Shown here piece by piece: positions 46,533-61,631 of a stretch of 64,000 bases of DNA. The DNA comes from Psychroserpens sp. NJDZ02. GTDB taxonomy: Bacteria; Bacteroidota; Bacteroidia; Flavobacteriales; Flavobacteriaceae. Position 1 is the stretch's first letter; every line of letters begins with the position of its first letter. Location: contig NZ_CP039451.1 in the NCBI RefSeq assembly GCF_004843725.1, positions 3,168,001 through 3,232,000 on the forward strand, written 5' to 3'. Made by a program: the position numbers and the translations under genes. Below the pieces are notes generated by a model. The model did not search any database. It saw only the letters and a program-made list of their open reading frames with translations, and was not told the DNA's origin.

Positions 46533-46577
46533 TGTAACTACAATTACATTGGCCAATTTTACTTAACTTTACCTTGT
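46533..46577 (+). promoter_or_regulatory. Promoter of the second crp gene, with its own motif A site
   Basis: TGTAAC-TACA-ATTACA (46533-46548, one mismatch) is followed after 21 nt by TACCTTGT (46570-46577), a weak -7 (TAnnTTG with one T missing). A closer -7 look-alike, TAACTTTA (46564-46571), is also present. Autoregulation is likely. Confidence 0.6.
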
Positions 46578-46589
46578 AAAAAATATACG

Positions 46590-47222
46590 ATGCTAGAAGA
46601 ACTACAACAACATTATGGGTATTTATTTGAAGAAGAATTGATACAAGAAATCAATAATGTTGGGACATACAAAGACATTCCTGAAGGATTTAAATTAATA
46701 GAAATTGGTGATTATATAAAGTCAATGCCACTTTTGGTAAGTGGCGCTATTAAGATTTTAAGAGAAGATGAAGATGGAGACGAGTTAATATTATACTTCA
46801 TAGAGCAAGGCGATACTTGCGCAATGACATTATCTTGTTGTTTAGGGAATTCTAAAAGTGAAATTAGGGCTGTGGCCGAAACAGATACTAAATTAATCAT
46901 GGTACCTGTCGCTAAAATGGAAGAATGGTTAGGTAAATATAAATCTTGGCAAAAATTTGTGTTGCAAAGTTACCATAATCGCATGTCAGAATTGTTGGAA
47001 GCTATTGATACTATTGCCTTTTTAAAAATGGACGAGCGTCTATTTAAGTACTTAAAAGACAAAGCTATGGTTAATCATGATGAGGTTATACATGTGACAC
47101 ATCAAGAAATTGCTAGAGATTTACACACCTCTAGAGTGGTAATATCCAGATTGTTAAAAACCTTAGAGATTGCCGGGAAAATAAAACTACACAGAAACAA
47201 TATTACAGTAATAGCATTATAA
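46590..47222 (+). CDS. Second Crp/Fnr family regulator (motif A candidate binder)
   Basis: A 210-aa protein with a cyclic-nucleotide-like sensor domain (IPEGFKLIEIGDYIKSMPLLVSG-type roll) and a C-terminal HTH, VTHQEIARDLHTSRVVISRLLKTLE. In the recognition helix the usual Glu of CRP (RETVGR) and FNR (VETISR) is Val (RVVISR), while the Arg positions are kept. The sensor has a cysteine cluster, C77, C83 and C84 (TCAMTLSCCLG), which could sense thiol or persulfide chemistry. It stands at the head of a region rich in motif A and has a copy in its own promoter. Sulfide- or redox-sensing is my inference. Confidence 0.9.
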   Translation: MLEELQQHYGYLFEEELIQEINNVGTYKDIPEGFKLIEIGDYIKSMPLLVSGAIKILREDEDGDELILYFIEQGDTCAMTLSCCLGNSKSEIRAVAETDTKLIMVPVAKMEEWLGKYKSWQKFVLQSYHNRMSELLEAIDTIAFLKMDERLFKYLKDKAMVNHDEVIHVTHQEIARDLHTSRVVISRLLKTLEIAGKIKLHRNNITVIAL

Positions 47223-47223
47223 A

Positions 47224-47268
47224 CGTAACAACTGTTACATATAACTATTGTTTAAAGCATTAGTTTTG
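47224..47268 (+). promoter_or_regulatory. TSUP transporter promoter: motif A plus perfect -7 box
   Basis: CGTAAC-AACT-GTTACA (47224-47239, one mismatch) is followed after exactly 21 nt by TAGTTTTG (47261-47268), an exact TAnnTTTG, 18 nt before the chosen ATG at 47287. Confidence 0.85.
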
Positions 47269-47286
47269 TTAGTGATAATACAACCT

Positions 47287-48081
47287 ATGGATTTTACACA
47301 AATATTTACTTACGTTGCAGCTTTTTTAATTGGTGCTATTTTAGGCTTAATTGGAGGAGGAGGCTCAATTTTAACAGTACCGTTATTAGTTTATTTTTTA
47401 GGATTTAATCCTATAATAGCAACCGCTTATTCCTTGTTTGTGGTGGGGTCATCATCACTGGTTGGTGTGATTGAAAAATACAGAAAAGGATTAGTGGATT
47501 TTAAGACAGGCTTAGCTTTTTCATTTCCCTCATTTATCGCCGTTTTTATCTCTAGAAGATATTTGGTGCCTGCGATACCAGATAAGCTTTTTACCATCGG
47601 CGAATTTTCGTTAACCAAAGGTATGGCAATCATGATATTTTTTGCAATAATCATGTTTTTGGCTGCATTTTCGATGATTAAAACAAAACAAAAGGAGTCT
47701 GTTTCTACAGGTTCTCAACCCTATTATAAAACCTTCGTACAAGGTATAATAATTGGTGTTATTACGGGGTTAATTGGAGCAGGTGGTGGTTTTTTATATG
47801 TTCCTGCACTTGTACTTTGGGCTGGTTTAGATATGAAAAAAGCAGTTGGAACATCTTTAGTTATTGTAGCAATTAATTCGTTAATAGGGTTTTCTGGAGA
47901 TGCACAAACCTTGGATATTGATTGGTTTTTTCTGTTAACCTTTTCTTCATTAACAATTGTAGGTATATTGGTTGGAGGCTATTTTTCTAAATTTGTCTCA
48001 GGAAAAAAATTAAAAAAGAGCTTTGGTTGGTTTGTGTTAGTCATGTCAATTTATATCATTTTAAAAGAATTAGTTTTTTAA
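47287..48081 (+). CDS. TSUP/TauE family membrane transporter
   Basis: A 264-aa protein with eight membrane helices. ATG 47287 is chosen because a TTG 13 codons earlier lies between the operator and the -7 box. Family signatures: GAILGLIGGGGSILTVPLLVYFLG (first repeat) and GVITGLIGAGGGFLYVPALVLWAGL (second repeat). TSUP proteins export or import sulfite, thiosulfate, sulfonates or related anions. The next gene is a persulfide dioxygenase, which makes sulfite, so sulfite efflux is the likely role here. Confidence 0.9.
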   Translation: MDFTQIFTYVAAFLIGAILGLIGGGGSILTVPLLVYFLGFNPIIATAYSLFVVGSSSLVGVIEKYRKGLVDFKTGLAFSFPSFIAVFISRRYLVPAIPDKLFTIGEFSLTKGMAIMIFFAIIMFLAAFSMIKTKQKESVSTGSQPYYKTFVQGIIIGVITGLIGAGGGFLYVPALVLWAGLDMKKAVGTSLVIVAINSLIGFSGDAQTLDIDWFFLLTFSSLTIVGILVGGYFSKFVSGKKLKKSFGWFVLVMSIYIILKELVF

Positions 48082-48084
48082 TTA

Positions 48085-48129
48085 TGTAACTTAGGTTGCC
48101 CTAAAAATTTAAAAACATTAGTAAATTTG
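48085..48129 (+). promoter_or_regulatory. Persulfide dioxygenase promoter: motif A (one weak half) plus perfect -7 box
   Basis: TGTAAC-TTAG-GTTGCC (48085-48100) has a perfect left half and two mismatches in the right half. TAAATTTG (48122-48129), an exact TAnnTTTG, follows after exactly 21 nt. The inferred leader is about 120 nt long. Confidence 0.75.
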
Positions 48130-48159
48130 AAGAATTAAACAAGATTTTTAGCCTAAAGG

Positions 48160-48260
48160 CGAATTTCTTTTAGCAAAATAGAATAGAATAGAATTAAAAT
48201 GAACAGAGCTATTAAAGCGAACTCATTTTATCAAAATATAAAATAGAATTCAAAATGAAG
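48160..48260 (+). repeat. Tandem copies of a 40-nt leader module upstream of the persulfide dioxygenase gene
   Basis: Two imperfect copies start CGAA at 48160 and 48218 and run through (A)GCAAAATA or ATCAAAATATAAAATAGAATT to an AAAATGAA start. The first ends at ATG 48199 and opens a 15-codon reading frame (MNRAIKANSFYQNIK, stop at 48244-48246). The second ends at the true gene start, 48255. A third copy lies before the HMA gene (49809-49851). Confidence 0.65.
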
Positions 48261-49670
48261 ATAGAGCAAATTTATACAGGTTGTTTGGCACACGCAGCCT
48301 ATTATATAGAAAGTAATGGAGAGGCAGCAATTTTTGACCCGTTAAGGGAAGTACAACCGTATATAAAAAGAGCAAAGCAAGACAATGCTAAAATCAAATA
48401 TATTTTTGAAACGCATTTTCATGCAGATTTTGTGTCTGGCCATTTAGATTTAAAAGAAAAAACAGGCGCTCAAATTGTATTTGGTCCAACAGCAAAACCA
48501 TCATATGATGCAATTATAGCAACGGATGGTCAACTATTTGAAGTCGGAGATTACAAAATAAAAGCCATCCATACTCCAGGTCATACTATGGAGAGTACAA
48601 CTTATCTTGTTATTGACGAAAATGGAAAAGAGCACGGTATAGTTACAGGAGATACTTTATTTATTGGAGATGTTGGTCGTCCTGATTTAGCACAAAAAAT
48701 AGCGTCAGACTTAACACAAGAAAAACTGGCAGGATATTTATTTGATTCACTTCGTGATAAAATTATGACCTTACCAGATAGTATTATTGTATACCCAGCA
48801 CATGGTGCTGGTTCTGCTTGTGGTAAAAACATGAGTAAAGAAACTACTGATACTTTAGGGCATCAAAAAGAGGTGAATTATGCGTTACGTGCGGATATGA
48901 CTAAAGCCGAATTTATAGACGAAGTATTAGATGGTTTGTCAGAACCTCCGGCTTATTTTCCTCAAAATGTTATGATGAATATTAAAGGTTATGAAAGTTT
49001 TGATAAAGTCATGACAAAATCTCAAAAACCATTAACACCTAAGGCTTTTGAAACAGCAGCAAATGAAACGGAGGCCATTGTTTTAGATGTGCGTAATCAA
49101 ACCGAATTTATAAAAGGACATATTCCACGTTCTATATTTATTGGTATTGATGGTGGATTTGCGCCTTGGGTGGGTGCATTAATTGCAGACGTTAGTCAGC
49201 CGGTTTTATTAGTTGCTCCAAAAGGTAGAGAAGAAGAGGTGATCACACGGTTATCTCGTGTTGGTTTTGATAATGTAATTGGGTATTTAGAGGGTAGTTT
49301 TGAGGCTTGGAAAAGTTCAGGGATGGATTATGATACATTAACATCAATCTCTGCAGAAGAGTTTGCTAAACGTTACGAAGACAATAAAGACGTCATTTTT
49401 GATGTAAGAAAAGATGGCGAATTTACAGCCGAGCATGTTGACGGAGCAAAACATACCGCTTTAGATAATCTAAACAGTCATTTAAGCGAGTTCCCAGAAG
49501 ATAAACCTTTTTACATCCATTGTGCTGGTGGTTACAGATCTGTCATTGCGGCTTCAATATTAAAAAGTAGAGGCATTCATAATTTAATTGATGTCGCTGG
49601 AGGTTATGGGGCGATCAAGAAAACAGATATACCAAGAACAGACTTTGTGTGTCCTACAACATTAAAATAA
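48255..49670 (+). CDS. Persulfide dioxygenase-like metallo-beta-lactamase fused to two rhodanese domains
   Basis: A 471-aa protein. Residues 1-240 are an ETHE1-type metallo-beta-lactamase: ETHFHADFVSGH (about 52-63), IKAIHTPGHTMEST, TGDTLFIGDVGRPDL and YPAHGAGSACG. Two rhodanese domains follow. The first (about 265-365) has no catalytic Cys at the loop (VAPKGRE); the second (about 370-465) has the active-site loop HCAGGYRS. ETHE1 enzymes oxidise glutathione- or other persulfides to sulfite; the rhodanese moves sulfane sulfur. With the SQR-like, TSUP and thioredoxin genes it makes up a sulfide oxidation set. Confidence 0.93.
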   Translation: MKIEQIYTGCLAHAAYYIESNGEAAIFDPLREVQPYIKRAKQDNAKIKYIFETHFHADFVSGHLDLKEKTGAQIVFGPTAKPSYDAIIATDGQLFEVGDYKIKAIHTPGHTMESTTYLVIDENGKEHGIVTGDTLFIGDVGRPDLAQKIASDLTQEKLAGYLFDSLRDKIMTLPDSIIVYPAHGAGSACGKNMSKETTDTLGHQKEVNYALRADMTKAEFIDEVLDGLSEPPAYFPQNVMMNIKGYESFDKVMTKSQKPLTPKAFETAANETEAIVLDVRNQTEFIKGHIPRSIFIGIDGGFAPWVGALIADVSQPVLLVAPKGREEEVITRLSRVGFDNVIGYLEGSFEAWKSSGMDYDTLTSISAEEFAKRYEDNKDVIFDVRKDGEFTAEHVDGAKHTALDNLNSHLSEFPEDKPFYIHCAGGYRSVIAASILKSRGIHNLIDVAGGYGAIKKTDIPRTDFVCPTTLK

Positions 49671-49693
49671 TATTACAGTTGTTTTTAGTTAGT

Positions 49694-49731
49694 AAAAGCG
49701 CGTATTGCATCACTGTAATACGCGCTTTTTT
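49694..49731 (+). terminator. Rho-independent terminator after the persulfide dioxygenase gene
   Basis: AAAAGCGCGTATT (49694-49706) pairs perfectly with AATACGCGCTTTT (49717-49729) around a 10-nt loop and runs into more T. The next motif A site starts only 3 nt after it. Confidence 0.95.
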
Positions 49732-49733
49732 TG

Positions 49734-49778
49734 TGTAACATTAGTTACCGTTCAAGCTTTTAATTTATAGTAACTTTA
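49734..49778 (+). promoter_or_regulatory. Promoter of the HMA-trx-TPMT operon: motif A plus -7 box
   Basis: TGTAAC-ATTA-GTTACC (49734-49749, one mismatch) is followed after exactly 21 nt by TAACTTTA (49771-49778), one mismatch from TAnnTTTG. The ATG is at 49846. Confidence 0.8.
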
Positions 49779-49845
49779 TTTATTATTTGTAATAGTTTAG
49801 TCTTAAGACGAACATAGTTTACCAAAATTTAAAATAGAATTAAAA

Positions 49846-50115
49846 ATGAACACTTCAATAGTAGTACAAAACTTAAAATGTGGTGGTTGTGCAAACTCTA
49901 TCACTACTAAATTAGCAGAAATAGAAAATATAACAGATATTAATGTGGATGTTGATAGTAGCCTAATTACATTTAGTCATAACAACAAAGTTGATGCTGC
50001 AACAGTAAAAGATAAACTTAAAATATTAGGTTATCCTTCAATAGATGATGATAACAATTTGATGTTTAAAGCTAAATCGTTTGTTAGTTGTGCGACAGGT
50101 AAACTTTCAAAATAA
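49846..50115 (+). CDS. Small HMA-domain protein (metal or thiol carrier)
   Basis: An 89-aa protein with an HMA fold: VQNLKCGGCANSITTKL (metal-binding CGGC at residues 12-15) and the following beta-alpha-beta pattern. The C-terminal FVSCATGKLSK adds a further Cys. HMA proteins carry Cu(I) and similar ions. Membership of a motif A operon with thioredoxin points to copper handling under sulfide stress, or to a redox role. It starts 49 nt before trx. Confidence 0.88.
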   Translation: MNTSIVVQNLKCGGCANSITTKLAEIENITDINVDVDSSLITFSHNNKVDAATVKDKLKILGYPSIDDDNNLMFKAKSFVSCATGKLSK

Positions 50116-50164
50116 AATAGTTTTAAAAGGATAATTTTACTATTTTGTATCTAAATAATTAAAC

Positions 50165-50461
50165 ATGAGTAAATTTTCAGAAATAATAAATCAAGATTCA
50201 CCAGTGTTGGTGGATTTTTATGCAGAATGGTGTGGACCTTGTAAAACAATGAGCCCTATTTTAAAAGACGTAAAGGATAATTTAAAAGAACGTGTGTCAA
50301 TTATAAAAATTGATGTCGATAAAAATCAAGAATTAGCATCTAAATATCAAGTTAGAGGTGTGCCAACGTTATTGCTATTTAAAAAAGGAAAACAAGTTTG
50401 GAGACAATCAGGTGTGCTACAAAAAAATGAATTGATTGATGTTATTACAGCAACGTACTAA
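50165..50461 (+). CDS. Thioredoxin
   Basis: A 98-aa thioredoxin with the active site WCGPC at residues 22-26 (VLVDFYAEWCGPCKTM) and the cis-Pro loop RGVPTLLLFK. Cytoplasmic, no signal peptide. It would reduce persulfides and disulfides, fitting a sulfide-oxidation operon. The stop overlaps the next start (TAATG). Confidence 0.95.
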   Translation: MSKFSEIINQDSPVLVDFYAEWCGPCKTMSPILKDVKDNLKERVSIIKIDVDKNQELASKYQVRGVPTLLLFKKGKQVWRQSGVLQKNELIDVITATY

Positions 50462-51048
50462 TGGATTTAAATGCGGATTTTTGGGATAATAAATATCAAT
50501 CTAACGATATTGGTTGGGATTTAGGTGCCATTTCGCCGCCATTACAAGCTTATTTTGATCAATTAACTAATTTGGAGTTGAAAATTTTAATTCCAGGAGG
50601 AGGTAATTGTTATGAGGCAGAATACCTTTATAATAAAGGCTTCATTAATGTATATGTAGTGGATTTATCTAAAACAGCTTTAGATAGTTTAAAAACTAGA
50701 GTACCCGATTTTCCATCATCAAATTTAATTGTAAATAATTTTTTTGATTTAGATATGACTTTCGATTTAATTATTGAACAAACTTTTTTTTGTGCAATAG
50801 ATCCAAGATTGAGAAGTTCTTACGCTAAAAAGGCTTCTGAGATTTTAAATCTAAAAGGTAAAGTTGCAGGATTACTATTTGATGCGATTTTAAATACAAC
50901 ACATCCACCTTTTGGCGGTAGTAAAACAGAGTATTTAGGCTATTTTAAGCCTTATTTTGATATTAAGGTTATGAAGGAGGCTTATAACTCAATAAAGCCA
51001 AGAGCAGGACGAGAATTATTTTTTGTTATTAAAAAAAAGGATAACTAA
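50461..51048 (+). CDS. Thiopurine S-methyltransferase (TPMT)-like SAM methyltransferase
   Basis: A 195-aa protein of the TPMT family: FWDNKYQSNDIGWDLGAISPPL (start), SAM-binding ILIPGGGNCYEAEYLYNKGF (motif I), VYVVDLSKTAL and EQTFFCAIDPRLRS. Relatives methylate thiol, selenol, tellurite or halide substrates. Translational coupling to thioredoxin suggests a thiol or hydrogen sulfide detoxification role, which is inference. Confidence 0.88.
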   Translation: MDLNADFWDNKYQSNDIGWDLGAISPPLQAYFDQLTNLELKILIPGGGNCYEAEYLYNKGFINVYVVDLSKTALDSLKTRVPDFPSSNLIVNNFFDLDMTFDLIIEQTFFCAIDPRLRSSYAKKASEILNLKGKVAGLLFDAILNTTHPPFGGSKTEYLGYFKPYFDIKVMKEAYNSIKPRAGRELFFVIKKKDN

Positions 51049-51064
51049 GAAAGGTTTAGTAAAA

Positions 51065-51108
51065 CTGATAATTGTCATAAAAAATATCAAAAGGCAATAG
51101 TAATTTTA
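51065..51108 (+). promoter_or_regulatory. Motif B promoter of the 49-aa membrane peptide
   Basis: CTGAT-AATT-GTCAT (51065-51078) is followed after exactly 22 nt by TAATTTTA (51101-51108), one mismatch from TAnnTTTG. Start codon at 51140. Confidence 0.7.
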
Positions 51109-51139
51109 CAGTATTAACTAACGACATAAATTTTACACT

Positions 51140-51289
51140 ATGATATCTCAAAACATTGCATTATACAATTGGAACAACGGAGTAATAATGATTGCTATAT
51201 TCGCGCTTGTTTGCCTAGGACTTATCGGATTGTTAGTAAGCTCAATGACAAATAGTGATAGAGATAAAGAAGAGCCTAAAGAAAGATAA
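51140..51289 (+). CDS. 49-aa single-pass membrane peptide under motif B control
   Basis: ATG 51140 to TAA 51289 encodes 49 residues: a short polar start (MISQNIALYNWNNG), one hydrophobic helix (about residues 15-34, IAIFALVCLGLIGLLVSS) and a charged end (DRDKEEPKER). It has its own FNR-type promoter and its own terminator, so it is a real gene and not a chance frame. It lies 270 nt before cydA. The layout resembles small accessory subunits of terminal oxidases such as CydX or CcoQ, but no residue motif confirms this. Confidence 0.75.
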   Translation: MISQNIALYNWNNGVIMIAIFALVCLGLIGLLVSSMTNSDRDKEEPKER

Positions 51290-51313
51290 TTTAAAACAGT
51301 AAACATAACAATT

Positions 51314-51343
51314 AAAAAAAAGCGCATATTATGCGTTTTTTTT
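51314..51343 (+). terminator. Terminator after the 49-aa peptide gene
   Basis: CGCAT-ATT-ATGCG sits between an A-run and a T-run, giving a long A/T-extended hairpin ending in T8. The rest of the gap up to 51495 shows nothing else that I can name. Confidence 0.85.
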
Positions 51344-51495
51344 ATACATTAAATTGCGTGATTACTAACTTTTAATAGTTGTAAAGGTAGGATATGGGTT
51401 TAGTATGGTCTAAGTCGTAACTATCACAAACCAAATTATCCTTCTTTTGTAATTGTATATTTAAAATAACAAAAAGTCTCATTTCGAGGCTTTTT

Positions 51496-51540
51496 TGTAA
51501 TAAAAGTTACACAGCGTTTATGCGTTGTGTCGTATTTTTA
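51496..51540 (+). promoter_or_regulatory. cydAB promoter: motif A plus -7 box
   Basis: TGTAAT-AAAA-GTTACA (51496-51511, one mismatch) is followed after exactly 21 nt by TATTTTTA (51533-51540), one mismatch from TAnnTTTG. The ATG at 51559 lies 18 nt further. Confidence 0.8.
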
Positions 51541-51558
51541 CAATCTAAACACTTGGCT

Positions 51559-52890
51559 ATGGAAGACATGCTCTTTTACGATAGGTTGCAGTTTGCATTT
51601 ACTATCACATTTCATTATATATTTCCGCAATTAACCATGGGATTATCATTATTGATCGTCTTTTTTAAATGGAAATATTTAAGAAATAACATCGAAAAGT
51701 ATAATAATGCAGCAAAATTTTTAATGAAAATTTTTGCTATTAATTTTACCATGGGAGTTGTTACTGGGATTCCAATGGAATTTCAATTTGGTACCAATTG
51801 GGCTAAGTTTTCAGAACTCACAGGTGGTATTATTGGTCAGACGTTGGCAATGGAAGGGATGTTCTCATTCTTTTTAGAATCCTCTTTTTTAGCGCTCTTT
51901 ATTTTTGGTGAAAAACTAATGGGACAAAAACTACACTTTTTAACAGGTTTTCTAGTCTTTTTAGGCTCTTGGGCAAGTGGTTGGTTTATTTTAGCAACTA
52001 ATGCTTGGATGCAACATCCTGTAGGTTTTGAGGTTTTAGAAAACGGTAAATTTGTTTTAGATAATTTTTCGGCACTCTTTACAAATCCTTGGTTATTACC
52101 AGCCTTTTTGCATAATCAAATAGCCTCTGTAGTAACGTCTTCTTTTGTTGTGGCAAGTATTGGAGCCTTTTATGTACTAAGAAATAAACAAGTAGAATAC
52201 GGGAAACTATTCTTAAAAACAGGTGTTATTTTTGGATTAATATCTAGTGTATTGGTTGCTTTCCCAACAGGTGATTGGAATGCTAAAAATGTTGCAGAAT
52301 ATCAACCAGCAGCATTTGCAGCTATGGAAGGGATTTTTGAAACAGAAGAGGCTGGAGCCGAAATTGTTTTAGTTGGACAACCTAACATGGTAGAAAAAAA
52401 GCTAGATAATAAAATAGCAGTTCCAAACGTATTGAGTTTTTTAACGCATCAAGATTGGGATAAACAAATCCCAGGAATGGATCAATTTAAAGAGGAAGAA
52501 TTGCCTAGTAATATCCCTGCGCTTTATTATTCTTACCACATAATGGTTGGTTTAGGCACCATTTTTATTGGTGTTATGGCGTTAGCGCTTTTCTTTTTAT
52601 GGCGAAAAAAACTATACACATTAAAACCATTATTATGGACTATTATGTTTTTGGTGCCATTTCCTTACATTGCAAACCTTACAGGTTGGTATACTGCAGA
52701 GTTAGGACGTCAACCGTATTTAGTGTACGGTTTATTAAAAACTAGCGATGGTATTTCGCCAACAGTATCTTCAGGAAACACATTATTTACATTACTTGGT
52801 TTTGTCGCTTTATATATGCTTTTAGGCTTATTATTTTTAGTCTTAGTTGGTAAAACTATTAATCAAGGTCCAAAACCTCAAACACATTAA
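51559..52890 (+). CDS. cydA: Cytochrome bd oxidase subunit I
   Basis: A 443-aa CydA. ATG 51559 is chosen because MEDMLFYDRLQFAFTITFHY matches the family start, and the upstream TTG would be within the promoter. The heme b595 ligand His is in FHYIFPQLTMG, the b558 ligands are in later helices, and the quinol-site segment is GWYTAELGRQPYLVYGLLKT. The Q-loop is of the short type. Bd oxidase reduces O2 without pumping protons and resists sulfide, cyanide and NO, which fits a sulfide-linked regulon. Confidence 0.97.
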   Translation: MEDMLFYDRLQFAFTITFHYIFPQLTMGLSLLIVFFKWKYLRNNIEKYNNAAKFLMKIFAINFTMGVVTGIPMEFQFGTNWAKFSELTGGIIGQTLAMEGMFSFFLESSFLALFIFGEKLMGQKLHFLTGFLVFLGSWASGWFILATNAWMQHPVGFEVLENGKFVLDNFSALFTNPWLLPAFLHNQIASVVTSSFVVASIGAFYVLRNKQVEYGKLFLKTGVIFGLISSVLVAFPTGDWNAKNVAEYQPAAFAAMEGIFETEEAGAEIVLVGQPNMVEKKLDNKIAVPNVLSFLTHQDWDKQIPGMDQFKEEELPSNIPALYYSYHIMVGLGTIFIGVMALALFFLWRKKLYTLKPLLWTIMFLVPFPYIANLTGWYTAELGRQPYLVYGLLKTSDGISPTVSSGNTLFTLLGFVALYMLLGLLFLVLVGKTINQGPKPQTH

Positions 52891-52892
52891 TT

Positions 52893-53966
52893 ATGGAAGT
52901 ATTTTGGTATATAGCAATCGCTATTGTTTTAGCAGTATTTTTTGTTTTAGATGGTTACGACTTTGGTACAGGAATCATTCATTTATTCTTTGCTAAAAAA
53001 GAAGAAGATAAAGAAGTTATCGCAAAATCGGCAGGATTATTTTGGGATTCTAACGAGGTTTGGTTAGTTGCTGCAGGAGGGATGCTTTTTATGGCATTTC
53101 CAACATTTTATGCCTCCGTTTTTAGTGGCTTTTATTTACCATTAATAATCGTGTTGTGGCTAATTGTTTTTAGAGCAATTGGTTTAGAGTTTAGAGGGCA
53201 ATTTAAATTTCAAATGTGGAAAGATATTTGGGACACGTCATTTGGTGTCTCTAGTTTACTATTAGCGCTGTTTTTTGGTATTGCTTTAGGTAATATTGTT
53301 AGAGGTGTCAATTTAGGAGGTGTTGAAAATGGTGTTTCAGCTTACGAAGGACACTATTTTTTCTTACCCTTATGGGACAGTAGTTTTAGTCCATTAAGTG
53401 ATACGCCAGGTATTATAGATTGGTTTACAATTATTATAGGATTAATTTCTGTGGTAACCTTGGCTATTCATGGTGCTAATTGGGTGATTTTAAAAACAAA
53501 TTCGTCAATTAACACTAAACTTAAAGGTGTTATTTTTAAGTTGAATATCGCATTAGCAATACTAACCGTATTTTCATTAGTTGTATGGCAGGTGGTTAAT
53601 CCAAAGTCGTTAGATAACTTTATGGATAGACCATATTTAATAGTCTTTCCTATTATTTATCTTACAGGATTAATTGGCTTATTTTTTATTAAAAAGCTAA
53701 AAAAAGAAAGTCACGGTTTTATGTTTTCTACCTTATTGATTTTAGGAGGGATAACATCGTCTTTGGCGTCTTTATTTCCAGTTATACTACCTTCTATTAA
53801 TACGACTCATCAGGATTTAACTATTTACAATACCGCAGCAGAAAAGTATGGTTTGTCTGTAGCTGTAAATTGGGCAATTATTGGTTTTATTCTTATCGTT
53901 ATTTACTTCATAATTCAAAAACGATTAATGGCAGGTAAAGTTGATAAAATGGATTACGGACACTAG
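52893..53966 (+). CDS. cydB: Cytochrome bd oxidase subunit II
   Basis: A 357-aa CydB with the typical start (FFVLDGYDFGTGIIH), DSNEVWLVAAGGMLFMAFP and a conserved WANW-like HGANWVILKT. About nine membrane helices. It starts 2 nt after cydA, so the two are made together. Normal length for the family. Confidence 0.97.
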   Translation: MEVFWYIAIAIVLAVFFVLDGYDFGTGIIHLFFAKKEEDKEVIAKSAGLFWDSNEVWLVAAGGMLFMAFPTFYASVFSGFYLPLIIVLWLIVFRAIGLEFRGQFKFQMWKDIWDTSFGVSSLLLALFFGIALGNIVRGVNLGGVENGVSAYEGHYFFLPLWDSSFSPLSDTPGIIDWFTIIIGLISVVTLAIHGANWVILKTNSSINTKLKGVIFKLNIALAILTVFSLVVWQVVNPKSLDNFMDRPYLIVFPIIYLTGLIGLFFIKKLKKESHGFMFSTLLILGGITSSLASLFPVILPSINTTHQDLTIYNTAAEKYGLSVAVNWAIIGFILIVIYFIIQKRLMAGKVDKMDYGH

Positions 53967-53981
53967 TCAAAATTAACAATT

Positions 53982-54278: not shown

Positions 54279-54295
54279 TTATTTATTCAACTTAC

Positions 54296-54355: not shown

Positions 54356-54369
54356 ACCATGTAGTTATA

Positions 54370-54984: not shown

Positions 54985-54985
54985 A

Positions 54986-56236
54986 ATGAAATACATAACA
55001 CTCATTTTAATTCTATTAATGTCCTTGACAAGTAAAGCACAGCAAAGTATTACGTTGGAGGAATGCTATGATTTAGTGATAGAAAACTATCCGTTAGCAA
55101 AACAGGTAAAACTCTTGGATGCGCAAAACAAATTGGATTTAGACGTTATTTCTACTTCAAAATTGCCACAGTTAAGTTTAGATGCGCAAGCCACCTATCA
55201 ATCTGATGTTATTCAGTTTCCTATGGCAATGTCAGGAATAGAACCCTTAAACAAAGATCAATATCGCGCAACCGTTTCTGTAAATCAACTTATTTATAAT
55301 GGAGGTGCAACAGATGCGTCTTTACAATTAAAAACAACTCAATTAAAAACGAAGCAAAAGCAAGTAGAAGTCAGTTTATATCAATTAAAACAGCAAATTA
55401 ATCAACTTTATTTTTCTGTTTTATTAGCGCAAGAATCTCAGTTATTATTAAACGCGAAACAAGCGCAATTAGAAGCTAAACTTAAGGAGGTACAATCAGG
55501 AATAAAGTATGGTGTTATTTTACCAAGTTCAGATAAAATTTTACAAGCCGAATTATTAAAAATAAGCCAGCAATTTAACGCATTAGAAAGTAACAAAACA
55601 TCACTTATTCAAACATTATCAAGTTTAATAAGTCAGCCATTAAATGCTTCAACAATATTTCAAAAGCCACTTTTAGACACACCGTTACAAACAGAACTAA
55701 CACGACCAGAATTAGAATTATTTCAACTTAAAAAAGAAGAAATTGAAAATTCTGAAACCCTACTGTCCAAACAAAACGCACCTAAATTACTAGGTTTTGC
55801 AACAGGTGGTTATGGTAATCCTGGATTAAATATGTTGGATAATTCGTTTCAAACATTTTATACCGTTGGTGTTAAAGTGAATTGGACTGTTTTTGATTGG
55901 AAGGCTAACAAAAAGCAAAGACAATCTTTAGCTATCAATAAAGATTTTATAGAGAATGAAACTGAAATTTTCAAACTCAATACTAACATTGCGCTAAATC
56001 AACAACAAAAAGAAATCGATAAAATTGAAACGTTTATTACTTCAGATTTAGAAATAATTAACCTTAGAAAAGACGTGCTCAAATCGGCAGATTCACAACT
56101 TAAAAATGGCGTAATAACCTCTTCGGCATACATTACAGAGCTTACCAATTTATACGAAGACGAAAACACCATGGTAAAGCATGACATTCAGTTACAACTA
56201 GCAAAAGCAAATTATAATGTCATTAAAGGACAATAA
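54986..56236 (+). CDS. TolC-like outer-membrane efflux protein
   Basis: A 416-aa outer membrane factor: a signal peptide ending SLTSKAQ, ITLEECYDLVIENYPLAKQ (the usual opening helix), long alpha-helical coiled coils and a second half repeat (FNALESNKTSLIQTLS and KLNTNIALNQQQKEIDK). It forms the trimeric outer-membrane channel of a tripartite pump. It begins 1 nt after the tetR stop. Confidence 0.93.
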   Translation: MKYITLILILLMSLTSKAQQSITLEECYDLVIENYPLAKQVKLLDAQNKLDLDVISTSKLPQLSLDAQATYQSDVIQFPMAMSGIEPLNKDQYRATVSVNQLIYNGGATDASLQLKTTQLKTKQKQVEVSLYQLKQQINQLYFSVLLAQESQLLLNAKQAQLEAKLKEVQSGIKYGVILPSSDKILQAELLKISQQFNALESNKTSLIQTLSSLISQPLNASTIFQKPLLDTPLQTELTRPELELFQLKKEEIENSETLLSKQNAPKLLGFATGGYGNPGLNMLDNSFQTFYTVGVKVNWTVFDWKANKKQRQSLAINKDFIENETEIFKLNTNIALNQQQKEIDKIETFITSDLEIINLRKDVLKSADSQLKNGVITSSAYITELTNLYEDENTMVKHDIQLQLAKANYNVIKGQ

Positions 56237-56246
56237 TACGAAGCAC

Positions 56247-57143
56247 ATGAAAACACACACATATATTTTAGGAATAGGCATCATACTTCTTACTTTAATT
56301 TCTTGCGGAAACGATAATGGAAAAGCAGATGGGTACGGAAATTTTGAAGCTACAGAAATAATCATTTCTGCAGAAAATAATGGGAAATTAATGCAGTTTA
56401 ATCTTGATGAAGGCGATGTGCTTCAAAAAGAACAATTTATTGGCTATATCGATACTATTCCGTTAGCATTAAAACGAGAACAATTAGAGGTTTCTAAAGC
56501 TGTAATTGCTTCAAAATCTAAAGGTGTTTTATCACAGATTAATGTATTAAATGCAAAACTAAAAACTGCAAATACAAATAAAACACGCGCTCAAAATCTT
56601 ATAAAGGACAATGCGGGAACACAAAAACAATTGGATGATGTTTTAGGCGAAATGGATGTAATAAAAAGCCAAATTAGAAGTGTCGAAATACAGAATGCAC
56701 CTGTCGTGAATGAGCTTAAATCTATTGATGTACAGTTAAAGCAAATTGACGACCAAATCCAGAAAAGTAAAATCACAAATCCTGTAAATGGAACTGTTTT
56801 GACCAAATATGCAGAACCAAATGAAATTACTGCTTTTGGAAAACCGTTGTATAAAATTGCCGATTTAAGTACTATGCAATTGCGTGTTTATATAAGTGAA
56901 ACACAATTAGCAAATATTAAAATAGGACAAGAAGTAACTATTAAAATTGATAACGCAGATGCAATGAAAGCGTATAAAGGAACGATTAGCTGGATAGCTT
57001 CAGAAGCAGAATTTACCCCAAAAATAATTCAAACTAAAGAAGAACGTGTGGCATTAGTTTATGCTTTAAAAGTAGACGTTAAAAATGAGGGCAGCCTAAA
57101 AATTGGAATGCCCGCAGAACTATGGCTAAATACTTCAGAATGA
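56247..57143 (+). CDS. HlyD-family membrane fusion lipoprotein (YbhG-like)
   Basis: A 298-aa protein starting at ATG 56247, 10 nt after the tolC-like stop. It carries a lipoprotein signal (LISCGNDN, Cys about 20). Biotinyl-lipoyl-like halves flank a helical hairpin: NFEATEIIISAENNGKLMQFNLDEGD (first half) and KITNPVNGTVLTKYAEPNE (second half), with a coiled coil between. The adaptor joins the ABC transporter to the TolC-like channel. Its stop overlaps the next gene (ATGA). Confidence 0.93.
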   Translation: MKTHTYILGIGIILLTLISCGNDNGKADGYGNFEATEIIISAENNGKLMQFNLDEGDVLQKEQFIGYIDTIPLALKREQLEVSKAVIASKSKGVLSQINVLNAKLKTANTNKTRAQNLIKDNAGTQKQLDDVLGEMDVIKSQIRSVEIQNAPVVNELKSIDVQLKQIDDQIQKSKITNPVNGTVLTKYAEPNEITAFGKPLYKIADLSTMQLRVYISETQLANIKIGQEVTIKIDNADAMKAYKGTISWIASEAEFTPKIIQTKEERVALVYALKVDVKNEGSLKIGMPAELWLNTSE

Positions 57144-58042
57144 GCATCACAGTTTCTAACATATCAAAATCTTACAAAAGTGTAAAAGCGTTAGAGAATA
57201 TTTCTTTTAATGTAAAAGAAGGAGAGATTTTTGGGCTTATCGGACCTGATGGAGCAGGTAAAACAACCTTGTTTAGAATTTTAACCACGCTATTAATTGC
57301 TAATGAAGGTACTGCAACGGTTGCTGATTTTGATGTGGTTTTAGACTATAAAAAGATTCGGAATAATGTGGGTTATATGCCAGGTAAATTTTCACTCTAT
57401 CAAGATTTAACCGTTGAAGAAAATTTAAATTTCTTCGCAACTATTTTTGGAACAACCATTGAAGAAAATTACGATCTAATAAAAGAAATTTATGTTCAAA
57501 TTGAACCTTTTAAAGACCGTCGTGCGGGAAAATTATCTGGAGGAATGAAGCAAAAACTCGCTTTATGTTGCGCTTTAATTCATAAACCAAAAGTGTTGTT
57601 TTTAGATGAGCCCACAACAGGTGTTGATCCAGTTTCTAGAAAAGAATTTTGGGACATGCTAAAACGTTTGCAACAAAAAGGAATCACCATTTTAGTGTCT
57701 ACACCATATATGGATGAAGCCGCTTTATGTGACAGAATTGCTTTAATTCAAGACGGTAAAATTTTACAGATTGATACACCTCAAGCCATTGTAAAGCACT
57801 ATCCGAAACAGATTTATAACGTAAGAGCAGATAATACGTATCAACTTATTAAGAGTTTAAAGACTTACAAATACAACCATAGTGTCTATCCTTTTGGTGA
57901 GTTTGTGCATTATACAGATCGTAGAGCAGATTTTAATCCTAAAGATTTAATACAGTTTTTAGAATCTAATAATCTTTCTAATGTGGAAATAGAAAAAACA
58001 GAGGCAACTATTGAAGATACCTTCATGGAATTAGCTAAATAA
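57140..58042 (+). CDS. ABC exporter ATPase, first half of a YbhF-like pair
   Basis: A 300-aa ATPase with Walker A GPDGAGKTTL, Q-loop, signature LSGGMKQKLAL, Walker B VLFLDEPTTGVDP and a C-terminal DrrA-like extension of about 75 residues. The start is ATG 57140, overlapping the HlyD stop by ATGA. In E. coli YbhF two ATPase domains are on one chain; here they are two genes. Confidence 0.95.
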   Translation: MSITVSNISKSYKSVKALENISFNVKEGEIFGLIGPDGAGKTTLFRILTTLLIANEGTATVADFDVVLDYKKIRNNVGYMPGKFSLYQDLTVEENLNFFATIFGTTIEENYDLIKEIYVQIEPFKDRRAGKLSGGMKQKLALCCALIHKPKVLFLDEPTTGVDPVSRKEFWDMLKRLQQKGITILVSTPYMDEAALCDRIALIQDGKILQIDTPQAIVKHYPKQIYNVRADNTYQLIKSLKTYKYNHSVYPFGEFVHYTDRRADFNPKDLIQFLESNNLSNVEIEKTEATIEDTFMELAK

Positions 58043-58049
58043 ATTACTA

Positions 58050-58064
58050 AAACCTGTCAGGTTT
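58050..58064. repeat. 15-bp palindrome AAACCTGTCAGGTTT between the two ATPase genes
   Basis: AAACCTG-T-CAGGTTT is a perfect 7-1-7 palindrome in the 34-nt gap. Similar CCTGTCAGG-type short palindromes are common interspersed repeats in flavobacteria, as far as I recall. It may be a small REP-like element. Confidence 0.55.
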
Positions 58065-58076
58065 AGAAAAAAAAGA

Positions 58077-58805
58077 ATGGACAACAATACAGTCATACAA
58101 GTAGAAGGGTTAACCAAAATGTACGGAGATTTTGCAGCTGTAGATGCCATTACTTTTGATGTTAAAAAAGGTGAGATATTCGGATTTTTAGGAGCAAATG
58201 GAGCAGGAAAAACTACAGCGATGAAAATGTTGATAGGTATATCTAAACCTACTGCAGGTAAAGCTCAGGTCGCAGGATTTGATGTTTATAAACAAACCGA
58301 AAACATCAAGAAAAGCATTGGTTATATGAGTCAGAAATTTGCTTTGTATGACGATTTAACAGTTAAAGAAAATATCACGTTTTTTGGCGGAATTTATGGC
58401 CTATCCAGAAAAAGAATAAAAGAAAAAACAGCAATCTTGCTTGAAGAATTAGGATTGGAAGACGTATCAGATCAATTAGTTGGTGCTTTACCTTTAGGTT
58501 GGAAACAAAAATTATCTTTTTCTGTGTCCTTAATACATGATCCGAAAATTGTGTTTTTAGATGAGCCAACAGGAGGAGTAGATCCTATTACTAGACGACA
58601 ATTTTGGGAAATGATTTACAAAGCAGCCCATCAAGGTACTACCGTTTTTGTAACTACGCATTACATGGATGAAGCAGAGTATTGCGACAGAGTTTCTATT
58701 ATGGTTAACGGAAAAATTGAAGCTTTAGATACACCTAAAAAATTGAAAGAACAATTTCAAGTAGATAATATGAACGATGTATTTTTAAAATTAGCAAGAG
58801 GATAG
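58077..58805 (+). CDS. ABC exporter ATPase, second half of a YbhF-like pair
   Basis: A 242-aa ATPase with Walker A GANGAGKTTAM, Walker B IVFLDEPTGGVDP and the H-loop TTHYMDEAEYC. The signature motif is unusual: LPLGWKQKLSFS in place of LSGGQ. That is a known feature of the second domain in YbhF-like pairs. It lacks the C-terminal extension of the first ATPase, so the two probably form a heterodimer with one weak site. Confidence 0.93.
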   Translation: MDNNTVIQVEGLTKMYGDFAAVDAITFDVKKGEIFGFLGANGAGKTTAMKMLIGISKPTAGKAQVAGFDVYKQTENIKKSIGYMSQKFALYDDLTVKENITFFGGIYGLSRKRIKEKTAILLEELGLEDVSDQLVGALPLGWKQKLSFSVSLIHDPKIVFLDEPTGGVDPITRRQFWEMIYKAAHQGTTVFVTTHYMDEAEYCDRVSIMVNGKIEALDTPKKLKEQFQVDNMNDVFLKLARG

Positions 58806-58807
58806 AA

Positions 58808-58893
58808 ATTCCCCACAGATGTCGCAGATTATCGCATAAAAAAGTATAAGTACACCTTGAGGAAAATCTGCGGTTATCTGCGAAATTTGCGGG
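58808..58893. repeat. Left flank of the GxxExxY cassette: inverted CTGCG-rich repeats
   Basis: TTCCCCACAGATGTCGCAGAT (58809-58829) is an imperfect inverted copy of ATCTGCGAAATTTGCGGGAA (58876-58895). Within the second arm, AAAATCTGCGGTTATCT (58863-58879) recurs at 59311-59327 with one mismatch. The G+C-rich words CTGCGG stand out from the AT-rich surroundings. An (AAT)5 run follows directly. Confidence 0.7.
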
Positions 58894-58917
58894 AATAATA
58901 ATAATAATAAAGAAATT

Positions 58918-59304
58918 ATGGAGCAAAAAACAGAAAATGACATTTCATACCTAATTAGAGGAGCTATTTTTAAAGTCTATAATGAATTGGGACCAGGTTT
59001 ATTAGAATCTGTATATGAAACTATTTTAATGTATGAATTAAAGAAACAAGGATTATCAGTTAAAAAACAAGTCCCATTACCAGTATTTTATGATGGTATA
59101 GAATTAGAAATTGGCTTCAGGTTAGATTTGTTAGTCAATAATAAAGTAATAATAGAAATAAAATCGATTGAAAATTTAGCAAAAGTACATCATAAGCAAG
59201 TTTTAACTTATTTAAAAATTTCGGAATTAAAGCTAGGTATTTTAGTGAATTTTAATGTGGATGACATAACAAAAGGAATATTCAGAAAAGTAAACGGATT
59301 ATAA
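58918..59304 (+). CDS. GxxExxY protein (PD-(D/E)xK-like) inserted in the exporter operon
   Basis: A 128-aa protein with the name-giving motif in ELGPGLLESVYETIL (G-x-x-E-x-x-Y, about residues 26-32). A nuclease-like core is seen in FRLDLLVNNKVIIEIKSIE (Asp and E-x-K, about 67-85), KVHHKQVLTYLKI and GILVNFN. GxxExxY genes are widespread in Bacteroidota, usually as strays, with no settled function. It separates the ATPases from the permeases of one exporter and is flanked by matching repeats, so it looks like a later insertion that left the operon readable. Confidence 0.93.
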   Translation: MEQKTENDISYLIRGAIFKVYNELGPGLLESVYETILMYELKKQGLSVKKQVPLPVFYDGIELEIGFRLDLLVNNKVIIEIKSIENLAKVHHKQVLTYLKISELKLGILVNFNVDDITKGIFRKVNGL

Positions 59305-59308
59305 CAAT

Positions 59309-59344
59309 AAAAAATCTGCGGTAATCTTTTAGATCTGCGGAAGA
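59309..59344. repeat. Right flank of the GxxExxY cassette: CTGCGG repeat
   Basis: AAAATCTGCGGTAATCT (59311-59327) repeats the left-flank word at 58863-58879 in direct orientation with one mismatch, and GATCTGCGGAAG follows. The permease ATG is 7 nt beyond. The two copies are 448 bp apart and bracket the inserted gene. Confidence 0.7.
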
Positions 59345-59350
59345 TAAATA

Positions 59351-60457
59351 ATGAAAAGATTCATAGGCTTCATAAAAAAAGAATTCTACCATATTTTTAG
59401 AGATAAACGTTCGTTGTTTATTCTCTTCGGAATGCCAATAGCACAAATTATGCTATTTGGTTTTGCGATTACTAATGAGATTAATAATGTAGAGATTGCA
59501 GTTTTAGACCATTCTAAAGATGCAACAACAACAGAAATTATTAATAAAATTTCAGCTTCAAAATACTTTAGTATCAGTCAATTTATTAATAAAGAATCAG
59601 ATATTGAAACTATTTTCAAAAAAGGAAAAGTAAAAGCGGTTTTAAATTTCGAAAAAGGATTTAGCAAAAATTTAATTAAAGATCACAAAGCAACTATCCA
59701 GATTATTACAGATGCTACAGATCCTAATACTGCAAATACAGTAAGTAACTATGTCAACGCTATTCTTCAACAATATCAAAAAGAACTGAATAAAGACATC
59801 GCCATCACCTATCAAATTGTACCACAAACCAGAATGGTTTACAACCCAGAATTAAAAAGTGTGTACATGTTTGTTCCCGGTGTAATGACTATTATTTTAA
59901 TGTTAGTTTCAGCTATGATGACTTCGATTTCTATTACTAGAGAAAAAGAATTAGGGACTATGGAAATCCTTTTAGTATCACCAATAAAACCAATTCAGGT
60001 TATTATTGGTAAAGTATTTCCTTATATTTTTCTATCCATTATAAATGCTACAGTTATTGTTTTACTAAGTATTTTCATCTTTAAAATGCCAGTTCAAGGA
60101 AGTCTCTTTTTATTAGGATTTGAAAGTGTTTTATTTATAATTACAGCATTAGCTTTAGGTATTTTAATATCAACAATTTCTGCTACACAACAAACAGCAA
60201 TGATGATTTCTTTAATGGGACTTATGCTTCCAGTAATTTTATTGTCCGGCTTTATTTTTCCGATTTCAAGCATGCCCTTACCATTGCAAATTATTAGTAA
60301 TATCATTCCTGCAAAGTGGTTTATTATCATCATAAAAGGCATTATGCTAAAAGGAGTAGGATTACAATATTTATGGAAAGAAACCTTGATTTTAATAGGG
60401 ATGACTATTTTTTATATAGGATTAAGTGTGAAGAAATATAAAATTAGATTGGAATAA
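59351..60457 (+). CDS. ABC-2 type permease (YbhS-like)
   Basis: A 368-aa permease: first helix at residues 22-42 after KKEFYHIFRDKRSLFILFG, a large external domain (about 45-170), then five helices starting VYMFVPGVMTIILMLVSAMM, with SITREKELGTMEILLVSPIKP, the intracellular coupling segment of this family. It pairs with the next gene to form the transmembrane channel. Its stop and the next start overlap (TAATG). Confidence 0.95.
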   Translation: MKRFIGFIKKEFYHIFRDKRSLFILFGMPIAQIMLFGFAITNEINNVEIAVLDHSKDATTTEIINKISASKYFSISQFINKESDIETIFKKGKVKAVLNFEKGFSKNLIKDHKATIQIITDATDPNTANTVSNYVNAILQQYQKELNKDIAITYQIVPQTRMVYNPELKSVYMFVPGVMTIILMLVSAMMTSISITREKELGTMEILLVSPIKPIQVIIGKVFPYIFLSIINATVIVLLSIFIFKMPVQGSLFLLGFESVLFIITALALGILISTISATQQTAMMISLMGLMLPVILLSGFIFPISSMPLPLQIISNIIPAKWFIIIIKGIMLKGVGLQYLWKETLILIGMTIFYIGLSVKKYKIRLE

Positions 60458-61578
60458 TGAAAACAATTTTATACATCATACAGAAAGAGTTTAAGCAAAT
60501 TTTCAGGAATAAAGGTATGCTTCCTATCATTTTTGTCTTGCCCATATTTCAACTTGTTATTTTATCTAATGCAGCTACTTTTGAAGTCAAAAACATCAAA
60601 TTCGGTTATATTGATAACGACCACACAGCAACATCTAGAGCGTTAATTGAAAAATTTAATGCATCCACTTATTTTAATGTGTTAACAGATTTCCCTTCGG
60701 AAGTATTAGCCAGTGCTGCGATGTTAAAAGGAGAAGTGGATGTACTTTTAGAAATTCCACACTATTTTGAGCGTGATTTACAAAAAGAAAAACAGAATAG
60801 CTTAGGCGTGACTATAAACGCTATTGATGGAGCAGCAGCAGGTGTAGAAAATGTGTATGTCACACAAATTGTACAACGCTTTAATCAGAGTATAAAAGTA
60901 GATTTATTACAAGTTTCAGATAAACAAATACAACCAATAGCTATAGAGACTATTCCATTATTTTGGTATAATAAGACCTTAAATTACAAAACCTTTATGG
61001 TTCCTGGTATTCTAGTTTTACTAGTAACCATGATTACGCTCTTCCTTTCGGGAATGAATATTGTCCGCGAAAAAGAAATTGGTACTCTAGAACAAATTAA
61101 TGTGACCCCAATTAAAAAAAGCCAGTTTATTATTGGGAAGCTTTTTCCATTTTGGGTGATAGGGATGGGGTTATTAACGGTCGGGTTAATTTTGGCTAAA
61201 GTTATTTTTAATATTCCGATGATTGGTAGTTTACCATTACTATATTTATATACCTCTATTTATATTTTAGTCATTTTAGGGATAGGTTTATTTATTTCCA
61301 ATTTTACGGATACACAGCAACAAGCAATGTTTATTGCATGGTTTTTTACAGTTATTTTTATTTTAATGAGTGGCTTATTCACACCAATAGAGAGTATGCC
61401 AAAATGGGCGCAAACCCTTACCGAATTTAATCCAATACGTTATTTTGTAGAGGTGATGCGTATGGTTATGTTAAAGGGCTCTGGTTTTAAAGATATTCTT
61501 CCTCAGTTATTAAAAACAGCGATTTATGCTTTTGTAATGAATGCTTTAGCCGTTTGGAGTTATAAGAAGACAAATTAA
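60457..61578 (+). CDS. ABC-2 type permease (YbhR-like)
   Basis: A 373-aa permease of the same type as its neighbour: KEFKQIFRNKGMLPIIFVLP, an external domain, then FMVPGILVLLVTMITLFLSGMN, IVREKEIGTLEQINVTPIKK and LMSGLFTPIESMPKWAQ. Last gene of the exporter operon. YbhFSR in E. coli exports tetracycline-like compounds and Na+/Li+; the cargo here cannot be told from sequence. Confidence 0.95.
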   Translation: MKTILYIIQKEFKQIFRNKGMLPIIFVLPIFQLVILSNAATFEVKNIKFGYIDNDHTATSRALIEKFNASTYFNVLTDFPSEVLASAAMLKGEVDVLLEIPHYFERDLQKEKQNSLGVTINAIDGAAAGVENVYVTQIVQRFNQSIKVDLLQVSDKQIQPIAIETIPLFWYNKTLNYKTFMVPGILVLLVTMITLFLSGMNIVREKEIGTLEQINVTPIKKSQFIIGKLFPFWVIGMGLLTVGLILAKVIFNIPMIGSLPLLYLYTSIYILVILGIGLFISNFTDTQQQAMFIAWFFTVIFILMSGLFTPIESMPKWAQTLTEFNPIRYFVEVMRMVMLKGSGFKDILPQLLKTAIYAFVMNALAVWSYKKTN

Positions 61579-61586
61579 GAGACTTG

Positions 61587-61631
61587 TGTAACAAAAGTTA
61601 CTGTGTAGCGCCTATAATTACTCAATCTTTG
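61587..61631 (+). promoter_or_regulatory. SQR-like gene promoter: motif A plus -7 box
   Basis: TGTAAC-AAAA-GTTACT (61587-61602, one mismatch) is followed after exactly 21 nt by AATCTTTG (61624-61631), one mismatch from TAnnTTTG. Same geometry as the cydAB, TSUP and persulfide dioxygenase promoters. Confidence 0.8.

Follow-up and report, generated by a model that had tools for sequence, protein, structure and literature searches.

A candidate Crp/Fnr-family activator of sulfide and reactive-sulfur genes acting from one promoter design in Psychroserpens sp. NJDZ02 and other Flavobacteriaceae

Introduction

How do flavobacteria, which are common where oxygen meets sulfide, sense that compound? 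In the literature searched we found no account of it, and a locus of Psychroserpens sp. NJDZ02 offers a candidate answer. The window analysed here, that is the whole stretch of 64,000 nucleotides (nt) at positions 3,168,001 to 3,232,000 of contig NZ_CP039451.1, carries the gene of a Crp/Fnr-family protein (46590-47222; hereafter the 46590 protein and the crp gene) and palindromes of the form TGTAAC-N4-GTTACA that stand at one distance from the -7 boxes of sulfur and respiratory genes (Table 1; coordinates are those of the window unless a genome position is named). An initial annotation had proposed that one regulator, most likely the 46590 protein, activates these genes.

We consider it probable that the 46590 protein is a class II activator of sulfide and reactive-sulfur genes that share one promoter design. 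Its dimer would bind TGTAAC-N4-GTTACA centred at -41.5 and would recruit RNA polymerase with the primary sigma factor, reading TAnnTTTG without a recognisable -33 element. In the window, the genes so controlled would handle sulfide and reactive sulfur through a sulfide:quinone oxidoreductase (SQR)-like flavoprotein, a persulfide dioxygenase-rhodanese (PDO), a TSUP exporter, a thioredoxin and cytochrome bd. The set would extend to DUF983, a sterol-desaturase-like protein, TolC-type efflux and Thioredoxin_9 elsewhere in the genome, and to Sulf_transp and YgaP-like proteins, molybdenum-containing oxidoreductases and cytochromes c in relatives, and a persulfide or polysulfide may act as the signal by modifying Cys77 and Cys83/Cys84. 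Computation shows the site, its spacing and its conservation, as well as gene content and how regulator is paired with operator, while activation and signal are what we infer.

An Operator at a Fixed Distance from the -7 Box

The six operators of the initial annotation are all present. Each palindrome of 16 nt is followed, after exactly 21 nt, by a -7 box of 8 nt, and these boxes are as described, five having none or one mismatch and that of the crp gene being weaker. A seventh site of the same geometry, on the minus strand, had been overlooked. Taken alone, the palindrome is weak evidence, its enrichment in the window being modest (10 with at most two mismatches vs 4.07 ± 1.82 expected, with a shuffle maximum of 9); it is the fixed spacing that carries weight.

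In the whole genome (4.32 Mb, one contig), 30 palindromes were found with at most one mismatch, against 18 in the reversed control. Among their 60 strand-sites, seven have a -7 box of at most one mismatch at spacing 21; for the remaining spacings between 10 and 34, 24 in all, the number is zero to three each. Four of these seven are listed window sites, one is the seventh window site (21843-21828), and two lie outside the window at genome positions 1035547 and 2892190; the remaining palindromes, without a box at 21 nt, look like chance, although not each was inspected. Those at genome positions 3718550 and 4035987 lie inside reading frames and were taken as chance, and the site at 2892190, before a TonB receptor with a long leader, was dropped from the regulon, being supported by none of the relatives. 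The full 18-letter pattern with at most three mismatches has 28 matches in the genome vs 11 in reverse, ten of the 28 having at most two and the crp site having three.

The sigma-A box TAnnTTTG has been placed at -12 to -5 in F. psychrophilum (PMC9723704), a paper whose main text contains neither the word Crp nor FNR. With this box position and 21 nt in between, the palindrome falls at -49 to -34, with its centre at -41.5. This is the classic class II arrangement, which had been claimed for the window sites and which the fixed spacing bears out, and we infer from it that the 46590 protein activates rather than represses. A conserved -33 element was looked for in the spacers of 264 unique sites pooled from 150 loci and none was found (maximum 0.16 bits). 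Repressor sites are not known to need a fixed spacing. That the 46590 protein is a repressor released by sulfide is suggested by CstR and BigR, described as repressors in known sulfide systems (PMC5480029, PMC7315123), but it is unlikely, as the strict position at -41.5 and the lack of a -33 element fit activation.

Table 1. Operators and genes of the window, with strand and supporting features
Feature	Position	Strand	Details
Operator before crp	46533..46548	+	palindrome 1 mismatch; -7 box 46570-46577 TACCTTGT, weak, 2 mismatches
Operator before TSUP gene	47224..47239	+	palindrome 1 mismatch; -7 box 47261-47268 TAGTTTTG, 0 mismatches
Operator before PDO gene	48085..48100	+	palindrome 2 mismatches; -7 box 48122-48129 TAAATTTG, 0 mismatches
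Operator before HMA/thioredoxin/TPMT	49734..49749	+	palindrome 1 mismatch; -7 box 49771-49778 TAACTTTA, 1 mismatch
Operator before cydA	51496..51511	+	palindrome 1 mismatch; -7 box 51533-51540 TATTTTTA, 1 mismatch
Operator before SQR-like gene	61587..61602	+	palindrome 1 mismatch; -7 box 61624-61631 AATCTTTG, 1 mismatch
Seventh operator, perfect palindrome	21828..21843	-	21 nt before -7 box 21806-21799 GATATTTG; precedes FNR-like gene
Crp/Fnr-family regulator, 210 aa, proposed activator	46590..47222	+	Pfam cNMP_binding and HTH_Crp_2; recognition helix TSRVVISRLL; Cys77, Cys83, Cys84
TSUP (TauE/SafE) transporter	47287..48081	+	PF01925, E 2.8e-42
Metallo-beta-lactamase-fold persulfide dioxygenase-like protein with two rhodanese domains	48255..49670	+	Pfam; PDB (3tp9 and 3r2u best, also ETHE1 4chl)
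HMA-domain protein (49846-50115), thioredoxin (50165-50461), TPMT-like methyltransferase (50461-51048)	49846..51048	+	Pfam
Cytochrome bd oxidase subunits I (51559-52890) and II (52893-53966)	51559..53966	+	Pfam
SQR-like flavoprotein	61747..63204	+	PDB sulfide-quinone reductases, E 1.6e-33
Second Crp/Fnr-family (FNR-like) gene, downstream of the seventh site	21074..21781	-	recognition helix with Glu

Conservation in the Flavobacteriaceae

The pattern of site and box was scanned with one mismatch allowed in 149 Flavobacteriaceae genomes, one per genus. At 21 nt it gave 237 matches in 98 genomes, against a single match in the reversed control; at 22 nt, 13 matches were found in 12 genomes (reversed, 3). 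A spacing of 20 nt may be a minor real class, because it gave 47 matches in 35 genomes vs 3 reversed. In the genome studied here, a site at 20 nt (genome position 1261478, L063 3079) precedes the gene of a small His-rich protein, for whose homologue from another genus (L314, 36% identity) the site stands at 21 nt.

A set anchored at the crp gene comprised the best 80 of 218 loci with a homologue of the 46590 protein, with Olleya namhaensis first at 96% identity. Of the six peptides used in this search, one contains Cys77. These loci contain 414 palindrome strand-sites. A -7 box of at most one mismatch follows 186 of these at 21 nt, 18 at 20 nt and 0 to 10 at any of the 24 further spacings tested, and the reversed sequence of the loci holds 26 palindromes, none with such a box at 21 nt. 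By a looser rule, sites are found in 75 of the 80 loci. Neither placement at random genes nor absence from relatives was seen, and the earlier statement that the identical spacing is unlikely to arise by chance is upheld by the spacing controls of both genome and relatives. Chance palindromes beside AT-rich -7-like sequences, which the modest palindrome count of the window would allow, are refuted by the controls in the genome, the 149 genomes and the 80 loci, and we give them next to no credence.

The Candidate Regulator and Its Recognition Helix

The 46590 protein has the cNMP-binding beta-barrel and Crp-type helix-turn-helix (Pfam) of the Crp/Fnr superfamily, and a Crp fold is predicted by its model. 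A Pfam search found 12 proteins with a cNMP-binding domain in the genome, a count from which those below the family's reach would escape. All 12 were read (L178, a long protein, in part), and among their recognition helices only that of the 46590 protein (R-V-xx-S-R) has Arg followed by Val at its two specificity positions, the other helices reading, for example, TATESAIRIL or VTPENLSRVR. Its residues R182, V183, S186 and R187 are kept in 81/81 closest homologues. Rodionov et al. (2005) related operator bases to positions 180 and 181 of the helix, and they attributed the HcpR2 operator GTAACnnnnGTTAC, a GTAAC form, to the replacement of Glu181 by Pro (PMC1274295). By alignment, their position 181 would correspond to V183 of the 46590 protein.

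Regulator and motif occur together: the motif was found in 96 of the 125 genomes with a Crp match (E 1e-30, some distant homologues included) vs 2 of the 24 without (Fisher p 2e-10, which, like all p values below, is optimistic because the genomes are related and not independent). The helix and the operator also vary together. In 40 further loci across the phylum, hand-chosen from the homologue list, residue 183 is Val (16) or Glu (24); an exact GTAAC-N4-GTTAC followed at 20-22 nt by a -7 box occurs in 7/16 Val vs 0/24 Glu loci (p 6e-4), and an exact GTGAC-N4-GTCAC or hybrid site in 12/24 Glu vs 1/16 Val loci (p 0.005). The sole Val locus with a GTGAC site (L274) also encodes another Crp, of the Glu type. 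A hybrid site stands immediately before a PDO gene in L282 and L283, both Glu loci, and the operator therefore changes with the protein while a sulfur target is kept. With residue 183 and the operator changing in step, these loci offer a natural test of the Crp/Fnr recognition rule. Co-occurrence, helix and co-variation in relatives all support the proposal of a single regulator, which is very probably the 46590 protein.

Two observations may be added on these phylum loci. In L274, the Val and Glu versions of this Crp are found in one genome, with both operator types nearby. Hybrid operators, made of one GTAAC and one GTGAC half, accompany Glu-type helices in L276, L278, L281-L283, L327, L340, L342 and L343.

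Binding of the sites by the FNR-like protein (21074-21781) or by another paralogue is very improbable. A perfect site does precede its own gene, and there is a weak link to the motif, present in 66 of 91 genomes with the FNR-like gene vs 32 of 58 without (p 0.035). However, the motif occurs in 32 of the 43 genomes that have Crp but no FNR-like gene, and in 2 of 9 in the reverse case; the site before the FNR-like gene recurs in 2 of 20 relative stretches; and the protein has at the specificity position a Glu, which in Crp homologues goes with GTGAC-type or hybrid operators.

The same region (21074-26806) holds, besides the FNR-like gene with its perfect site, a divergent P-type ATPase gene (21836) and, nearby, a cbb3-type oxidase gene (24614), both names being judged from translations. 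This arrangement suggests that the sulfur regulator is linked to oxygen-responsive respiration in this lineage.

Genes Behind the Operator

The genes behind the sites of relatives support the regulon of sulfur and respiration that had been claimed. In the 80 loci, whose anchoring at the crp gene biases counts towards its neighbours, a script assigned 220 site readings, in which 23 palindromes figure on both strands, mostly with a weak box in the second reading. PDO-rhodanese (65) and TSUP (44) come first, followed by Sulf_transp (YeeE-like, 13), DUF983 (10), cytochrome c, SQR-like and sterol-desaturase-like proteins (9 each), YgaP-like/DUF2892 (8), peroxiredoxin (7), cydA and Fe-S protein (5 each), TolC and HemN (4 each), HMA (2), SulP (1) and crp (1); 17 readings were left unassigned and 7 had no open reading frame. 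An earlier assignment with fewer references had given 67 for PDO and 13 for SQR. Genes for sulfur, thiols or respiration account for 161/220 readings, the sum of PDO, TSUP, Sulf_transp, cytochrome c, SQR-like, YgaP-like, peroxiredoxin, cydA and SulP. HemN was rejected as a target, because in its four loci it is always a back reading of the DUF983 palindrome with a weak box (1, 2, 2 and 2 mismatches).

The five target units initially proposed fared unequally. Among relative loci that have the gene, the site is well conserved before TSUP (44/54) and PDO-rhodanese (51/60) and moderately before cydA (5/9), but poorly before HMA. It precedes close orthologues of the window SQR (56-88% identity) in three loci only (L160, L172, L289), and distant SQR-like flavoproteins (22-32% identity) in 14 other loci. 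As for the sites of the genome outside the window, the gene has a site in 17 relative loci for DUF983, 10 for the sterol-desaturase-like protein, 7 for TolC and 3 for Thioredoxin_9, whose own site has three mismatches; the small protein has 1 such locus and the TonB receptor none.

A second, non-random set of 70 loci (the 30 best scan matches and 40 hand-chosen ones) gave 73 sites before 69 downstream frames, with TauE in 9, rhodanese and DUF983 in 7 each, Pyr_redox_2 and Lactamase_B in 5 each, Thioredoxin_9 in 4 and OEP in 3, and pairs of Mo-oxidoreductase, Sulf_transp and YgaP-like proteins. Among the examples are a SoxA/TsdA cytochrome and a molybdopterin oxidoreductase; other proteins, an aldehyde dehydrogenase and a LacI-like regulator for instance, have no plain role in sulfur metabolism. 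No nitrogen family is present among the 25 downstream-frame Pfam families listed.

Some promoters are arranged in particular ways. A single palindrome separates divergent sterol-desaturase-like and YgaP-like genes in several loci (L158 15033, L162 15618, L169 14932, also L150, L153 and L173), and in three of them a perfect -7 box lies 21 nt off on both sides, which makes it a two-way operator. At genome positions 1032500-1038500 (L045), the sterol-desaturase-like target belongs to a run of genes for rhodanese, glycosyltransferase-like, nucleoside phosphorylase and DUF547-like proteins, a run that we presume may be arsenosugar-related. In the window, a hairpin resembling a terminator with its T run (GCGCGTATT...AATACGCGC, 49698-49733) directly adjoins the 49734 operator.

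Cysteines and the Proposed Signal

Cys77, Cys83 and Cys84 are the only cysteines of the 46590 protein, which has no FNR-type N-terminal cysteine cluster. They are invariant in 81/81 closest homologues (about 66-96% identity) and present in 30/30 best homologues of a separate draw made without the Cys pattern. Of 28 loci drawn across the phylum, all keep Cys77 and 27 keep Cys83 and Cys84, the exception being L248. All loci of a first distant group of 20 have Cys77 and Cys83, and 14/20 have Cys84; in a second, more distant group of 20, Cys77 is kept in 20/20 and Cys83 in 8/20. The best PDB match, the Crp/Fnr protein 3DV8 of Eubacterium rectale, has cysteines aligned to 77 and 83. By this alignment and the CRP fold, the three cysteines would sit in the segment that holds cyclic AMP in CRP, whose ligand contacts we take to map there.

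Sulfane sulfur appears the likeliest signal, because the targets comprise persulfide dioxygenase, SQR and TauE, all of which CstR controls in S. aureus (PMC5480029). We therefore lean, by a little, towards a Crp/Fnr sensor of persulfide or polysulfide that would act as class II activator of sulfide defence across most Flavobacteriaceae genera, with sulfur bridges between Cys77 and Cys83 (and Cys84) in the former cyclic-nucleotide pocket switching the protein on, and with a sister group in the phylum in which helix and operator have changed together. If these cysteines do sense sulfane sulfur, the cyclic-nucleotide fold would gain a signal chemistry not met in the literature searched.

A different signal for the same regulator and regulon is possible, though we hold it rather doubtful: the cysteines might bind a metal or Fe-S cluster, or respond to oxygen, NO or general redox state, the sulfur genes then being part of a redox-respiration regulon. 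The targets indeed include cytochrome bd, cytochromes c, DUF983, the sterol-desaturase-like protein and, in this lineage, the FNR-like regulator, and Crp/Fnr members of P. gingivalis are described as heme-binding and seen as a sensor of nitrosative or redox stress (PMC12040651); L248, with two of the three cysteines missing, would fit as well. Yet the commonest direct targets are PDO-rhodanese and TSUP, FNR-type N-terminal cysteines are lacking, and the genome has no hcp gene.

Several observations, in addition to the relatedness of the genomes, weigh against the proposed activator and its sulfane-sulfur signal. Regarding the signal, L248 (genome G119, 56% identity) has the V183 helix and Cys77 without Cys83 and Cys84, the confidence of the structural model is lowest in the cysteine region (pLDDT 64-65, residues 71-90), and a redox or oxygen state could be sensed, because the sterol-desaturase-like, TolC and DUF983 proteins are not known sulfur genes. 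Regarding the pairing of protein and operator, a 21-nt match at one mismatch is missing from 29 of the 125 genomes in which Crp was matched, two genomes without Crp (G088, G141) have 21-nt matches, two incomplete ones scored without Crp (G066, G147) have 20-nt matches, and 21 phylum loci (9/16 V183 and 12/24 E183) have no exact site. As to the targets, the site precedes the HMA gene in 2 of 26 relative loci with the gene and is as rare before the FNR-like gene as said above; similarly, a palindrome upstream of crp (at most two mismatches, within 160 nt) occurs in 4 of 80 relative loci, two of which show, after 21 nt, a -7 box with 1 or 2 mismatches, so that autoregulation was rejected as a general feature and is at most lineage-specific. 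L248, with the same helix and Cys83 and Cys84 lost, is also a natural test of what these cysteines do.

Comparison with Known Systems

The initial annotation knew of no flavobacterial regulon with this operator. The regulon was indeed not found described, but the operator core GTAACnnnnGTTAC has been published for HcpR2, where it serves hcp genes (PMC1274295). HcpR2 resembles the 46590 protein by its Crp/Fnr family and by this core, which the sites described here carry; it differs by Pro at position 181 in place of Val (81/81), and it regulates and co-occurs with hcp, no sulfur regulon being described for it in the accessible parts of that paper. A Prismane (hcp) search of the genome gave no match, and no homologue of the 46590 protein was found beside hcp in 30 loci at E 1e-3. 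The absence of both hcp and Pro181 speaks against membership in HcpR2.

NtcA is a class II activator with a GTA-N8-TAC operator, 2-oxoglutarate as effector and nitrogen targets. Its helix STRVTVTRLL, by PDB alignment, shares RVxxxR with the 46590 protein, but it has no cysteine aligned to 77, 83 or 84; 3DV8 differs by the lack of a cysteine at 84. PgRsp was set aside as the same protein on its description as a heme-binding redox regulator, given without an operator in the accessible text. The nearest mention in the literature searched concerns a Crp of A. baumannii, for which high persulfidation is reported (PMC7315123).

The operator core and the Crp/Fnr family are already known. Apparently new are the regulon, the family-wide fixed class II design, the cysteine set and the matched change of operator; none of these, nor a Crp/Fnr sensor of sulfane sulfur, was found described in the literature searched, which mostly did not reach subscription papers. 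What the locus provides is one candidate regulator, an exact operator and promoter geometry, and a testable list of targets, in about two thirds of the sampled genera (98/149).

Among known sulfur regulators, FisR and SqrR/BigR are described as controlling persulfide dioxygenase and sulfur transporters, BigR through dithiol chemistry (PMC7315123), which is reminiscent of the system proposed here. However, FisR is a sigma-54-dependent activator and SqrR/BigR an ArsR-family repressor, and the 46590 protein is neither, since by Pfam it belongs to none of the CsoR, ArsR and sigma-54 activator families. A likeness in gene content is seen with the CstR regulon of Staphylococcus aureus, which comprises TauE, the persulfide dioxygenase-sulfurtransferase CstB and SQR under a CsoR-like repressor (PMC5480029), whereas here a Crp/Fnr-family protein would act on such genes from an activator position.

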